This document shows positions 14,700-49,393 of a stretch of 52,355 nt of DNA, in pieces. The stretch lies in assembly GCA_024645005.1 (NCBI GenBank), contig JAHEGS010000001.1:1-52355 (forward strand). The letters run 5' to 3'. The translations under genes and the position numbers were made by a program. A model generated the notes under the pieces. The model did no database searches. It saw only the letters and a list, made by a program, of their open reading frames with translations, and had not been told where the DNA came from. Origin of the DNA: Bacteroidota bacterium. GTDB lineage: Bacteria; Bacteroidota; Bacteroidia; NS11-12g; UBA9320. Numbering within the stretch: the stretch's first letter is position 1; each line of letters begins with the position of its first letter.

Positions 14700-15041
14700 T
14701 TATCTTTTTTCTTTGATTCGAGCACTTTTACCTGAACGACCACGTAGATAGAATATTCTAGCCCTTCTAACTTTACCTCTACGATTGACTTCAATTTTAT
14801 CGATGTTAGGTGAATTCAAAGGAAATATTCTTTCAACACCAACGCCACTACTGATTTTTCGTACCGTGAATGTTTCATCTAATCCAGAATTTCTGCACTG
14901 AAGAACAGTACCTTGGAATACCTGAATACGTTCTTTGTCACCCTCTTTAATTTTATAGTGAACTGAAACGTTGTCGCCTGCTGCAAATTCTGGGATGTCG
15001 GTTCTTATTTGTTCTGCTGCTATTTGCTTTACTAAATCCAT
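14700..15041 (-). CDS. rplS: 50S ribosomal protein L19
   Basis: [46 protein letters not shown]...[20 protein letters not shown] track start is over-extended. Confidence 0.97.
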
Positions 15042-15059
15042 TTTTTTAATAAGTGGGTG

Positions 15060-15067
15060 CAAAAGTA
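15060..15067 (-). promoter_or_regulatory. -7 element (TACTTTTG) for rplS
   Basis: Reverse complement TACTTTTGCACCC just upstream of rplS start. Confidence 0.6.
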
Positions 15068-15163
15068 ATAAAAAGAATGAGGGCTTATTAACATTATTTA
15101 AAAAAATGTCGATATTTAAGAAGAAAAAAGAATCGGTATTTAGGTAGATATACAAATAAATTT

Positions 15164-15171
15164 TACTTTTG
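15164..15171 (+). promoter_or_regulatory. -7 element (TACTTTTG) for rplU
   Basis: TACTTTTGCAGC 16 nt before the rplU ATG. Confidence 0.6.
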
Positions 15172-15187
15172 CAGCTCTAAAAATAAT

Positions 15188-15502
15188 ATGTACGCAATAG
15201 TTGATATAGCAGGCAAGCAATTTAAGGTTCAAAAAGATCAAAAATTGTATGTCCATAGATTAGGTGAAGACACCGGCAAATCATTTAGTTTTGACAACGT
15301 AATGCTTGTTGAAGATTCGGGTAAAGTAACTGTAGGAACTCCATCAATTAAAGGAGCCACTGTAAAAGCTAAAGTACTTGACCATCTTAAAGGAGACAAG
15401 GTTATTGTTTTTAAGAAAAAGAGAAGAAAAGGGTACAAGGTTAAAAATGGTCACAGACAGTATCTAACACAAATTCAAATAGAAAGCATTAAGGCAAAAT
15501 AA
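15188..15502 (+). CDS. rplU: 50S ribosomal protein L21
   Basis: MYAIVDIAGKQFKVQKDQKLYVHRL...KRRKGYKVKNGHRQYLTQIQI. Confidence 0.97.
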   Translation: MYAIVDIAGKQFKVQKDQKLYVHRLGEDTGKSFSFDNVMLVEDSGKVTVGTPSIKGATVKAKVLDHLKGDKVIVFKKKRRKGYKVKNGHRQYLTQIQIESIKAK

Positions 15503-15505
15503 ACC

Positions 15506-15754
15506 ATGGCACATAAAAAAGGAGCTGGAAGTAGTAAAAATGGAAGAGAGTCGCACAGTAAACGACTTGGTGTTAAAATATTCGGTGGGCAAGAGTGCAT
15601 CGCCGGCAACATATTGGTTAGACAACGTGGTACAGTTCACCACCCTGGTAAAAATGTGGGTATGGGTAAAGATCACACTCTATTTGCACTAACTGATGGT
15701 AAAGTAGAGTTTAAGAAAAAAGCAAATAATCGTTCGTTTGTGAACGTAGTTTAA
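15506..15754 (+). CDS. rpmA: 50S ribosomal protein L27
   Basis: [62 protein letters not shown]. Confidence 0.97.
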
Positions 15755-15781
15755 AAAAATATTTTTTTTTTATTCGGATTG

Positions 15782-15811
15782 TTGTTCATCTGAATATTAG
15801 TTATAAATTTG
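15782..15811 (+). promoter_or_regulatory. Promoter of orphan sRNA (TTG - 19 nt - TAAATTTG)
   Basis: TTG at 15782-15784 and TAAATTTG at 15804-15811; the best -33/-7 match I found in the window. Confidence 0.65.
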
Positions 15812-15817
15812 TACCAA

Positions 15818-15943
15818 CAAACAAGGCAATCATTAAGCGTCTCAATAAAATAGAGGCAATATAGATTAAAGACCTTGGGCGTTCTAGCCCAAGATTTAGA
15901 GTTTTCATAGTCAATTGAAAAGGTCCTCTCGGGGACCTTTTCT
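15818..15943 (+). ncRNA. Candidate orphan structured small RNA
   Basis: Non-coding interval with own promoter, hairpin CTTGGGC-gttcta-GCCCAAG (15874-15893), smaller stem GTCTC/GAGGC, and terminator AAAAGGTCC...GGACCTTTT. Confidence 0.6.
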
Positions 15944-15944
15944 T
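15918..15944 (+). terminator. Terminator of orphan sRNA
   Basis: AAAAGGTCC-tctcgg-GGACCTTTTcttattt. Confidence 0.8.
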
Positions 15945-15963
15945 ATTTATATCATTTTGTAAT

Positions 15964-16608
15964 TTATTGAAAGATTTTACTCCCTACTCGAATTAGAGAA
16001 CTACCACATTCGATCGCCTGAATGTAATCACCACTCATACCCATTGAAAGTGTAGTCCAGTTCAGCTGATCTTTCCATTTATTGAAAAAGGATTCAAGTT
16101 TTTTGAATTCAGATTTTATAATCGCTGTGTCAGGCGTATTGGTTGCCATACCCATTAAACCTAGGAGCTCAATATTTTTAAATTCTGAAATTTCATTAGA
16201 TTCGATAATTTGAGTAAGGTCATTCATTGAAAAACCATATTTATGTTCCTCCTCAGCAATATGAACTTGTAAAAGAATAGGAATAACTCGGTGATTCTTT
16301 CTTGCTTCTTTATTAATTTCTTTGAGTAACTTAATACGATCAACGGATTGTATAAGATGGATAAACGGAGCTATAAATTTAACCTTGTTGGTTTGTAAAT
16401 GACCAATCATATGCCAACGGATGTCATTTGGCATCAATTCTTTCTTTTTTGTGAGTTCTTGAACTCTATTCTCAGCAAAATCTCGCTGATTCGCCTCATA
16501 TACTTGATTTAATTCCTCAATGGTTCTATATTTTGAAACCACAACTAATTCGACATTTCCTATTTCTTGCCGTATTTGTGTGATATTTTCGCGTATAGAA
16601 TGAGACAT
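15964..16608 (-). CDS. YggS-family pyridoxal phosphate homeostasis protein
   Basis: ELVVVSKYRTIEELNQVYEANQRDFAENRVQELTKK...RWHMIGHLQTNKVKFI...LSMGMSGDYIQAIECGSSLIRVGSKIF. Confidence 0.95.
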   Translation of the reverse strand: MSHSIRENITQIRQEIGNVELVVVSKYRTIEELNQVYEANQRDFAENRVQELTKKKELMPNDIRWHMIGHLQTNKVKFIAPFIHLIQSVDRIKLLKEINKEARKNHRVIPILLQVHIAEEEHKYGFSMNDLTQIIESNEISEFKNIELLGLMGMATNTPDTAIIKSEFKKLESFFNKWKDQLNWTTLSMGMSGDYIQAIECGSSLIRVGSKIFQ

Positions 16609-16938
16609 ATTTTCGTCGCAAAGATATTTTTACTTTATTTAATAGTTATAATTTTTGGATGCAACTCAAATACAGAACAGAAACCTGATGGTGTAATTGA
16701 AGAAAAAGTAATGATTGAGATTATAAAAGATCTAAAAATATTAGATGCAGCCCAAAAATCGTTTGTAACGGGAAGTATTGAAGGGAAAATGATGAGAGAT
16801 ACTTCTTACACTATTGTATTTAACAAGTATAACACAAATGCAGAACAATTTGATAGTAGTCTACGATCATATGCCAGAAATCCTAAAATATTGGCTCAAT
16901 TAATGGATGAAGTCGGTAAGAAGATAAATCGTTACTAG
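16600..16938 (+). CDS. DUF4296-like lipoprotein
   Basis: Likely start MRHIFVAKIFLLYLIVIIFGCNS at 16600; lipobox IFGC; MIEIIKDLKILDAAQ...YNTNAEQFDSSLRSYARNPKILAQLMDEV. Confidence 0.75.
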   Translation: MRHIFVAKIFLLYLIVIIFGCNSNTEQKPDGVIEEKVMIEIIKDLKILDAAQKSFVTGSIEGKMMRDTSYTIVFNKYNTNAEQFDSSLRSYARNPKILAQLMDEVGKKINRY

Positions 16939-16940
16939 TT

Positions 16941-19286
16941 GTGCTTTTTCCAAAAAATATTAATAAAAAATTAGGCTTTGATCAATTTCTTGAATTTGCG
17001 AAAAATCATTGTGAGACGGAATTAGGAAAATCAATTTACCAAAAAATAAGATTCACCCACCAATCGGAGATTCTTTCTCTGTGGTTAGAACAAACTAAGG
17101 AAGCACAAGAAATACTTGAAGAAGCTCAACTAAATGTATCACTTCCACTTGACTTTGATTTACATGAAAAAACTGCCCATATTCAAGGATTTTTCTATGA
17201 AACTGAGTCAATACAAGAAATTAGTGATTTTCTTAAATCAAGTAAAAAGGTAGATGATTTTTTTAAAAATAATCTTGAGGAATATCCAAAACTATCACGA
17301 GTTTTTAAAGATATAGCAATAGACTACTCACTAATCGATCAGGTAGATCAAATTCTAGATCCAGATGGCAGTATCAAACCATCTGCCACGCCCATGCTTC
17401 GTAAAATATATGGTCAAATAAAAAAATTAGAAACCAGCATATTTAAGAGTTCAAATTCTATTTTTTTACATGCCAAAGAAAAAGGATTGCTTGCCGATAC
17501 AGAGTTAGGTATAAAAAATGGGAGAGTAGTGCTCCCTGTTTTATCGGAATATAAACGAAAGGTGCATGGCGTATTAATTGATCAATCTGGTACGGGTAAA
17601 ATTTCCTATATAGAACCAATTGAAATTGTAAGTTTAAATAATGACTTGTCAGAGTTACAAATAAAAAAGAGGCAGGAAATCATTACTATTTTGAAGAAAA
17701 TAACGACCCATATCGTCTCTAATTTAAGAGATATCAAAATAGCAAGACAAAATTTGGCATTTTATGACTTTGTAAGATCAAAAGCTAGGCTTGCATCTGA
17801 CTGGGAATGTCAGTTACCTAAGTTTGATTCGCATACTTATGTAATCAATAGTAAACACCCACTATTAAAAGAAAGGCTTAAAGATGAAAATAAGCAATTA
17901 GTGCCTCTTGATTACTCGTTAGATAAAAATAATCGCATTATTGTAATCTCAGGTCCAAATGCAGGAGGTAAGTCAGTTGCATTAAAAACGGTCGGTTTGC
18001 TCCAAATGATGTTACAACACGGTTTTTTGGTCCCATGTACTGCTGAAAGTACTTTCCAACTTTTTGAGCATATTTTTATAGATATTGGAGATGATCAGAG
18101 TATTGAATCAGATTTGAGTACGTATTCTTCTCATCTTAAGTCAGTTAAACACATCGTTAATTTTTGTAATAATAAAACATTGATTTTAATGGATGAGATA
18201 GGTACTGGAACAGATCCTATGTTTGGAGGGCCAATTGCAGAGGCTGTCTTGGAATCTATCCACGCAAAAAATGCGTATGGTATTATTACGACTCATTTCA
18301 GCAATATAAAGGCCAAAGCTGATCAGCTCAATGGAATTCAAAATGCTGCTATGCTGTTTGATGTTGAAAATTTAATTCCGTTATACAAATTGCAAGTTGG
18401 AAAGCCTGGAAGTTCTTTCTCATTTGAAGTAGCCAGTAATATTGGTCTTAATAAAAAAATAATAAAAAGAGCAAAAGCACTGACAGATACGAAACAATAT
18501 GATTTAGATGAATTACTCTCTGATGTTCAGTCACAACAAGAAAAACTCAAGGAAAAAGAACGAGTGTTGAATAAAAAACTAGCTAATGCAAAAGACTATG
18601 AACGTGAATATAGATTGCTTAAAGAGCAAATAGAGAATCATAAATCCCAGATTATCCAGCAAGCGAATACACAAGCTAGCTCTATTATAAAGTCGGCAAA
18701 CAAAGAGATTGAAAAAACAATTAGACTTATCAAAGAGAGTGCTGCTGATAAGAAAAAAACAAATAAGGTAAGAAATTCATTGAGCCAAAAAGTATCAAAA
18801 TTGGGTAAAAAACACCCTGAATATTCATCTGATATAGTCTATGAAATTGGAGATCAAGTGCAAGTGAAAGGTTCGGATACTGCTGGAGAAATAACGGAAA
18901 TCAAAAAAAATAGAATTACTATAAATTTTGGTGGTTTGACAACCAAAACGAGCATAGAAAATATTGAGAAGGTAGGAGAAAAAAATGCTAAAAAAGTAAA
19001 AAAGTATATAAGTGAATCTTCCTATCTTCAAAAGCAGAAGAATTTTAAATCAGAAATTGATGTTCGAGGAATGAGGACGCATGAAGCCCTTATTGAAGTA
19101 GATAATTTAATTGATACAGCATTGATTATGGGTGTTTCCAAACTGAGAATTTTACATGGTAAAGGAAATGGCATTTTAAGAACAGAAATTAGAAAGCATT
19201 TAAAACTAAATCCAATAATAGCTGACATGTCATATGAACGGGTTGATTTAGGTGGCGAGGGAATTAGTATCATAGAATTAAGTTAA
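16941..19286 (+). CDS. mutS2: MutS2-type endonuclease/ATPase with C-terminal Smr domain
   Basis: GTG start; Walker A GPNAGGKSVALKT, MDEIGTGTDP; Smr motif LRILHGKGNGILR. Confidence 0.95.
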   Translation: MLFPKNINKKLGFDQFLEFAKNHCETELGKSIYQKIRFTHQSEILSLWLEQTKEAQEILEEAQLNVSLPLDFDLHEKTAHIQGFFYETESIQEISDFLKSSKKVDDFFKNNLEEYPKLSRVFKDIAIDYSLIDQVDQILDPDGSIKPSATPMLRKIYGQIKKLETSIFKSSNSIFLHAKEKGLLADTELGIKNGRVVLPVLSEYKRKVHGVLIDQSGTGKISYIEPIEIVSLNNDLSELQIKKRQEIITILKKITTHIVSNLRDIKIARQNLAFYDFVRSKARLASDWECQLPKFDSHTYVINSKHPLLKERLKDENKQLVPLDYSLDKNNRIIVISGPNAGGKSVALKTVGLLQMMLQHGFLVPCTAESTFQLFEHIFIDIGDDQSIESDLSTYSSHLKSVKHIVNFCNNKTLILMDEIGTGTDPMFGGPIAEAVLESIHAKNAYGIITTHFSNIKAKADQLNGIQNAAMLFDVENLIPLYKLQVGKPGSSFSFEVASNIGLNKKIIKRAKALTDTKQYDLDELLSDVQSQQEKLKEKERVLNKKLANAKDYEREYRLLKEQIENHKSQIIQQANTQASSIIKSANKEIEKTIRLIKESAADKKKTNKVRNSLSQKVSKLGKKHPEYSSDIVYEIGDQVQVKGSDTAGEITEIKKNRITINFGGLTTKTSIENIEKVGEKNAKKVKKYISESSYLQKQKNFKSEIDVRGMRTHEALIEVDNLIDTALIMGVSKLRILHGKGNGILRTEIRKHLKLNPIIADMSYERVDLGGEGISIIELS

Positions 19287-49132: not shown

Positions 49133-49393
49133 ATGAATTTAATTATCAAAAACATACCTAAATCCTATAATGCTCATTACTTAGAGATGTTATTTGAGAA
49201 GTATGGTGAAATAAGCTACGCTAAAGTGGTTTATGATAGGGTAACTAAAGAACCCAAAGGTACTGGGTTTGTTGAATTTGAAAAGGAGGAAGACGGTTTA
49301 AAAGCGATCGAAGAGATGAACGGTAAAGAAGTGAGTGGCCAAAAGCTTCACGTTGAGAAAGCTAGACCTCGTAGGGTTAACATTTGGAGCTAA
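49133..49393 (+). CDS. Single-RRM RNA-binding protein
   Basis: LIIKNIP (RNP2-like), KGTGFVEFE (RNP1), 86 aa. Confidence 0.92.
   Translation: MNLIIKNIPKSYNAHYLEMLFEKYGEISYAKVVYDRVTKEPKGTGFVEFEKEEDGLKAIEEMNGKEVSGQKLHVEKARPRRVNIWS

Follow-up and report, generated by a model that had tools for sequence, protein, structure and literature searches.

The trans-acting RNAs characterised so far in Bacteroidota are few, and the closest described systems include several from Bacteroides and Flavobacterium. The Bacteroides small RNAs (sRNAs) GibS, MasB, BatR and FopS pair near start codons (PMC7366714, PMC11697453). GibS and the FopS family of Bacteroides thetaiotaomicron occur in organisms without Hfq, carry conserved unpaired sequence at the 5' end, and have the RRM protein RbpB as their partner (PMC11697453, PMC7366714). 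FopS comprises several paralogous copies, which are mostly free-standing except for one 3'UTR-derived member (FopS-14), and combines an R1 seed with a 41-nt RbpB motif (PMC11697453). Rfp18 and other independent transcripts of Flavobacterium psychrophilum are structured, are conserved within the genus, have a TAnnTTTG-type promoter, and belong to no Rfam family (PMC9723704). Another kind of sRNA, represented by MalH (PMC8081044) and EsrE (PMC5581919), lies at the 3' end of an mRNA and uses the terminator of that mRNA. Finally, 6S-Flavo (RF01685) and Flavo-1 (RF01705) are non-coding RNAs of Bacteroidota that are similar in length to the RNA described here.

The gene for this RNA spans positions 15782-15945 of the window (the whole stretch of DNA analysed, 52,355 nt), in the intergenic region between rpmA and yggS. 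Like FopS and GibS, it belongs to a Bacteroidota lineage without detectable Hfq and has a conserved unpaired sequence, and its copy pattern resembles that of FopS, with which it is compared by description. However, its invariant unpaired part lies before the terminator and not at the 5' end, its copies stay at one locus, and both its pairing and its protein partner are putative. The Flavobacterium transcripts, likewise compared by description, share its structured nature, promoter type, genus-level conservation and lack of an Rfam family. Relatives also carry it, like MalH and EsrE, at the 3' end of an mRNA whose terminator it uses, but some of these relatives hold fused and promoter-bearing copies side by side and others only one of the two. 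Judged by sequence comparison, the RNA represents a new family of an already known kind, one that comprises free-standing and 3'UTR-derived sRNAs, and no family of this sequence exists in Rfam 15.

The first-pass annotation of this DNA had considered that the RNA might be a divergent 6S-Flavo or Flavo-1. A covariance search of positions 15000-17000 against Rfam with permissive filters returned no match for the element at E<=10, only four chance matches, and the element gave none at gathering score. The Flavo-1 model gave no match at E<=10, the 6S-Flavo model gave none at E<=10 on 15000-17000 or at gathering score in the window, and the architecture differs, being one of three hairpins and not a 6S-type rod. 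The suggested kinship was thus not borne out, and the novelty of the RNA stands.

The rpmA-yggS locus and its predicted transcript

The upstream neighbour, and proposed parent gene, is rpmA (ribosomal protein L27; 15506-15754, + strand), and the downstream neighbour is yggS (PLP homeostasis protein, named from its protein sequence; 15964-16608, - strand), so that the interval lies between convergent genes, as first described. The promoter that had been proposed there is present on the + strand and can be read directly from the sequence: a -33 element TTG (15782-15784), 19 nt, and then a -7 element TAAATTTG (15804-15811) that corresponds to the Bacteroidota consensus TAnnTTTG (PMC9723704). Among the 13 free-standing copies with readable upstream DNA, a TTG stands 18-19 nt 5' of the -7 box in 11, and a perfect TAnnTTTG is kept 14-18 nt 5' of a downstream AATC motif in 12, against a background rate of 3.3% of random 35-nt windows from the same loci. 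In a 15th free-type copy (G015), the 5' part is degenerate and has no clear promoter box.

In Flavobacterium, the TAnnTTTG box is placed at -12 to -5 (PMC9723704), and the transcript is therefore predicted to start near 15816 and to be about 130 nt long, ending at the intrinsic terminator (15816-15945, + strand). We infer from these sequences and their conservation that the sRNA gene is transcribed from its own promoter, which would be of the sigma-A type, and yields a regulatory RNA that stands free of its neighbours and would measure about 130 nt. No terminator-like site was found on the + strand between rpmA and the sRNA in the window, and part of the sRNA may therefore come from rpmA read-through. 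Two features expected of a free-standing bacterial sRNA, a conserved promoter of its own and a conserved intrinsic terminator (from sequence and covariation), were both found here. Promoter spacing, three hairpins and an invariant core are conserved across 14 genomes, which supports the original proposal of an independently transcribed structured sRNA; conservation of the hairpins and promoter in relatives had been set beforehand as its test, and both the covariation and the box spacing were found. It is nearly certain that a functional RNA exists in the rpmA-yggS interval, and it probably acts as a regulator.

Structure and conservation of the RNA

All of the structural elements first noted at this locus, that is, the GTCTC/GAGGC stem, the CTTGGGC/GCCCAAG stem and the strong terminator, were found on the + strand. 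Near the 5' end, an AATC motif (15828-15831) that is invariant in the 14 free-standing copies can pair with GATT (15864-15867), closing hairpin 1, and this pairing appears in some single-sequence folds only. Hairpin 1 itself (15839-15857; arms GTCTC at 15839-15843 and GAGGC at 15853-15857) is fixed in position and variable in sequence. It is followed by a conserved linker 1, TAGATTAAAG (15862-15871), which contains the rpmA stop codon in the fused copies of relatives, and by hairpin 2 (CTTGGGC-GTTCTA-GCCCAAG; 15874-15893), whose sequence is invariant among the free-standing copies. Linker 2, ATTTAGAGTTTTCATAGTCAATTGA (15894-15918), comprises 25 unpaired nucleotides that are identical in 14 of 14 free-standing copies, and it is a candidate seed or protein-binding site. 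The intrinsic terminator, GAAAAGGTCC-TCTC-GGGACCTTTTC followed by TTATTT (15917-15945; hairpin 15917-15942), is recognised from both sequence and covariation.

A 133-nt segment containing these elements folds at -37.3 kcal/mol compared with -22.7 +/- 3.5 for its shuffles (z -4.2; 0 of 200 as good), and folds of the 14 genomes predict three separate hairpins. The hairpin 1 segment is more stable than its own shuffles in each genome (z -2.1 to -4.5), and its place is unchanged although its sequence differs considerably between the halves of the genus. Double-sided changes occur in all five of its pairs with no non-canonical pair in the 14 genomes, a count that leans towards structure since the arms were selected manually on the folds. 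Taken together, hairpin 2 and the terminator have 97.4% of cells paired and six pairs with double-sided changes, which 0 of 500 shuffles equalled, in an alignment whose rows include close relatives and hence are not independent, and in which the hairpin 2 changes come from the fused copies and G015. The changes in the fused copies are compensatory, from C-G to A-U and from G-C to A-U. Folding and covariation thus show, at the level of predicted structure, a 5' hairpin, a central hairpin and a terminator hairpin, with an open 25-nt linker before the terminator. The terminator also appears to have enough symmetry to work for yggS on the opposite strand. Hairpin 2 also scores as terminator-like on the minus strand (15872-15895, -), and both hairpins may terminate transcription of the convergent yggS.

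Nucleotide searching across 58 related genomes recovered the core from 15 more species of the genus, which brings the count to 16 of 19 with the genome of the window, and in all 16 the homologue sits between rpmA and convergent yggS. In the three genus genomes that lack it (67-86% complete), the searches found rpmA or yggS to be absent or partial. The 45 nt from CTTGGGC to CAATTGA, covering hairpin 2 and linker 2, are identical in the 14 free-standing copies, and the rpmA third codon positions of the same genomes differ by 42% on average and by up to 55%; the median protein identity between two of the genomes, G008 and G011, is 63% (357 ortholog pairs). Such very strong conservation of 45 letters suggests that the RNA is important to these bacteria, which are probably marine. 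When 84,980 species genomes were scanned for the linker pattern, it proved limited to these uncultured Bacteroidota, plus a reduced form in one more genome, which corresponds to a sister genus (G023); the remaining matches were without rpmA or terminator context, and records named Bacteroides gave zero exact matches. By this pattern the family is confined to a single uncultured Bacteroidota genus, apart from a trace in the sister genus.

Several stray matches were set aside. Weak covariance-model matches that could have been paralogues elsewhere, such as those in G012:C37 (8.4e-5), G007:C38 and G019, were judged to be terminator-driven chance or unbacked. The first of these (L051; G012:C37:2117-2197) has TTTAGTTCATATCAATT just 5' of a strong terminator after another gene and is either a distant relative or chance, and in G007:C38 (L137 and L064) a linker-like TTTCATAGTTCTATTTAGGTTTTTCATAGTTAAT precedes a terminator-like hairpin and lies upstream of a peptidase-like frame. 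The other occurrences of the short motif TTTCATAGTYAAT lack context, and a phage or viral origin was rejected on the basis of a single viral-contig match with no terminator after it. The RNA was also not taken for an antisense to yggS, for which an invariant core would be unneeded.

rpmA-fused copies and the origin of the family

In six genomes (G002, G004, G010, G012, G013 and G015), a copy of the core is fused to the rpmA stop codon, overlapping or abutting it (loci L010, L011, L016, L009, L014 and L015), and five of these loci have it in tandem with a free-type copy. The fused copy is the sole one found in G002 and has decayed in G012. These six relatives share the 3' end and terminator of the RNA with a coding transcript, as is typical of 3'UTR-derived sRNAs, unlike the window, whose own copy is promoter-bearing. 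The first-pass term "orphan" should be amended, as relatives also have the RNA as the 3' end of the rpmA transcript, where the family seems to have originated.

The rpmA 3'UTR of G006 reads as containing an apparent remnant terminator, and in the sister genus G023 the rpmA 3'UTR contains a reduced linker, TTTAGTTTCATAGTCAAT, with TTTAGTTTCATAGTCAATC and a terminator after rpmA and no hairpin 2. In other genera of the family no such linker follows rpmA, where an ordinary terminator or nothing is found. A tree built from RplU, RpmA and YggS places the fused copies at scattered positions within one of its two clades. From this copy distribution and the tree, the most likely and simplest account would be that the rplU-rpmA transcript first carried the RNA as its 3' end, that duplication then produced a copy that gained a promoter, and that the fused copy was lost several times afterwards. 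The reverse direction, with the free-standing form first, is possible, since the direction depends on a single linker-bearing outgroup and on a tree whose deepest nodes are weakly supported (54). With fused, duplicated and free-standing forms at one locus, the family offers a test case for how a 3'UTR-derived RNA becomes an independent gene.

Candidate modes of action

Linker 2 is the candidate seed because it is the oldest and most constant unpaired part of the RNA, and the sRNA would use it to base pair in trans, without Hfq, with one or a few mRNAs. This pairing model is the best explanation that the sequence comparisons offer, and we hold it with moderate confidence in view of the negative results of the target search. 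The linker is antisense to GACU-AUG-AAA-AC, which is the basis of a start-codon antisense idea. Apart from the sRNA loci themselves, its reverse complement matched the 19 genomes at the level of reversed controls, and among the matches inspected, few lay at gene starts, and these in unrelated genes. At gene starts (978 and 700 genes) and across 357 ortholog pairs, the duplex energies of the linker were no better than those of shuffled linkers, so that a conserved seed complementary to start regions, of the GibS and FopS type, was not seen; an apparent depletion of strong duplexes at gene starts was non-significant with 80 shuffles. These tests drew on 1.2 Mb of G008, 0.79 Mb of G011 and the window, in which genes were called crudely, and a start-region test of this kind would miss a single target or one elsewhere in the mRNA. 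A comparison for complementarity to rRNA gave no long match, but the stretches compared were not hit by the 16S and 23S probes, so that this result says little.

The invariance of both strands of the hairpin 2 stem in the free-standing copies also weighs against the pairing model, because a plain structural stem beside a seed needs no such invariance. This feature, which extends beyond the unpaired letters, together with the missing start-codon signal and the RRM_1 proteins described below, would be expected if hairpin 2 and the linker were recognised by an RNA-binding protein, for example of the RRM type, or by the translation machinery, which the RNA would then titrate or modulate as a scaffold. 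We regard such a protein-binding RNA as possible, though somewhat unlikely, because the fused copies keep the linker constant and let the hairpin 2 stem change with compensation and its loop vary in length, and because G023 keeps the linker without hairpin 2. A more specific version, in which the two elements form a lineage-specific housekeeping RNA that couples rplU-rpmA synthesis to, for example, translation initiation by contacting either the ribosome or some global RNA-binding protein in place of classical pairing with mRNA, is doubtful; if true, the near-absolute constraint on both stem strands would reflect that contact. Equally improbable is a role in cis, with the rpmA 3'UTR and terminator governing how the rplU-rpmA mRNA ends or how stable it is and the free-standing copy a by-product. 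The six genomes with the core immediately at the rpmA stop codon, among them G002 with no other copy found, and the uninterrupted path from rpmA to the sRNA in the window would suit such a role, but in the clade of the window, G006, G008 and G001 only the promoter-bearing copy retains the core, the promoter and 5' hairpin are under selection, and 45 invariant letters are superfluous for a terminator.

Two further explanations are much weaker. Zero 6S-Flavo matches in the genus might point to a lineage-specific replacement of 6S RNA; however, the 6S-Flavo model found nothing over cut-off in the genome of the window and 78 relatives and was also silent in all 14 control genomes, so that its silence says little, and the three separate hairpins predicted in 14 genomes do not form the long, centrally bulged rod that mimics an open promoter, which makes this replacement very improbable. 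The least credible reading is a small protein or dual-function RNA, for which an 11-codon frame in the core (TTG GGC GTT CTA GCC CAA GAT TTA GAG TTT TCA TAG) is open in the free-standing copies, yet it has zero synonymous changes in 14 of them against the third-position divergence of rpmA given above, and loop indels in the fused copies of G015, G002 and G013 break it.

Linkage to a ribosomal protein operon would let the level of the sRNA under the pairing model track ribosome synthesis, which is speculative. Hfq was found in none of the 19 genus genomes by a search whose control was positive, and an RbpB-like RRM protein is a possible partner: RRM_1 proteins, one to four each, are encoded in 18 of the 19 genomes. 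In the window, 49133-49393 (+ strand) encodes a single-domain RRM_1 protein of 86 aa that is similar in kind to Bacteroides RbpB and is a candidate partner of the sRNA.
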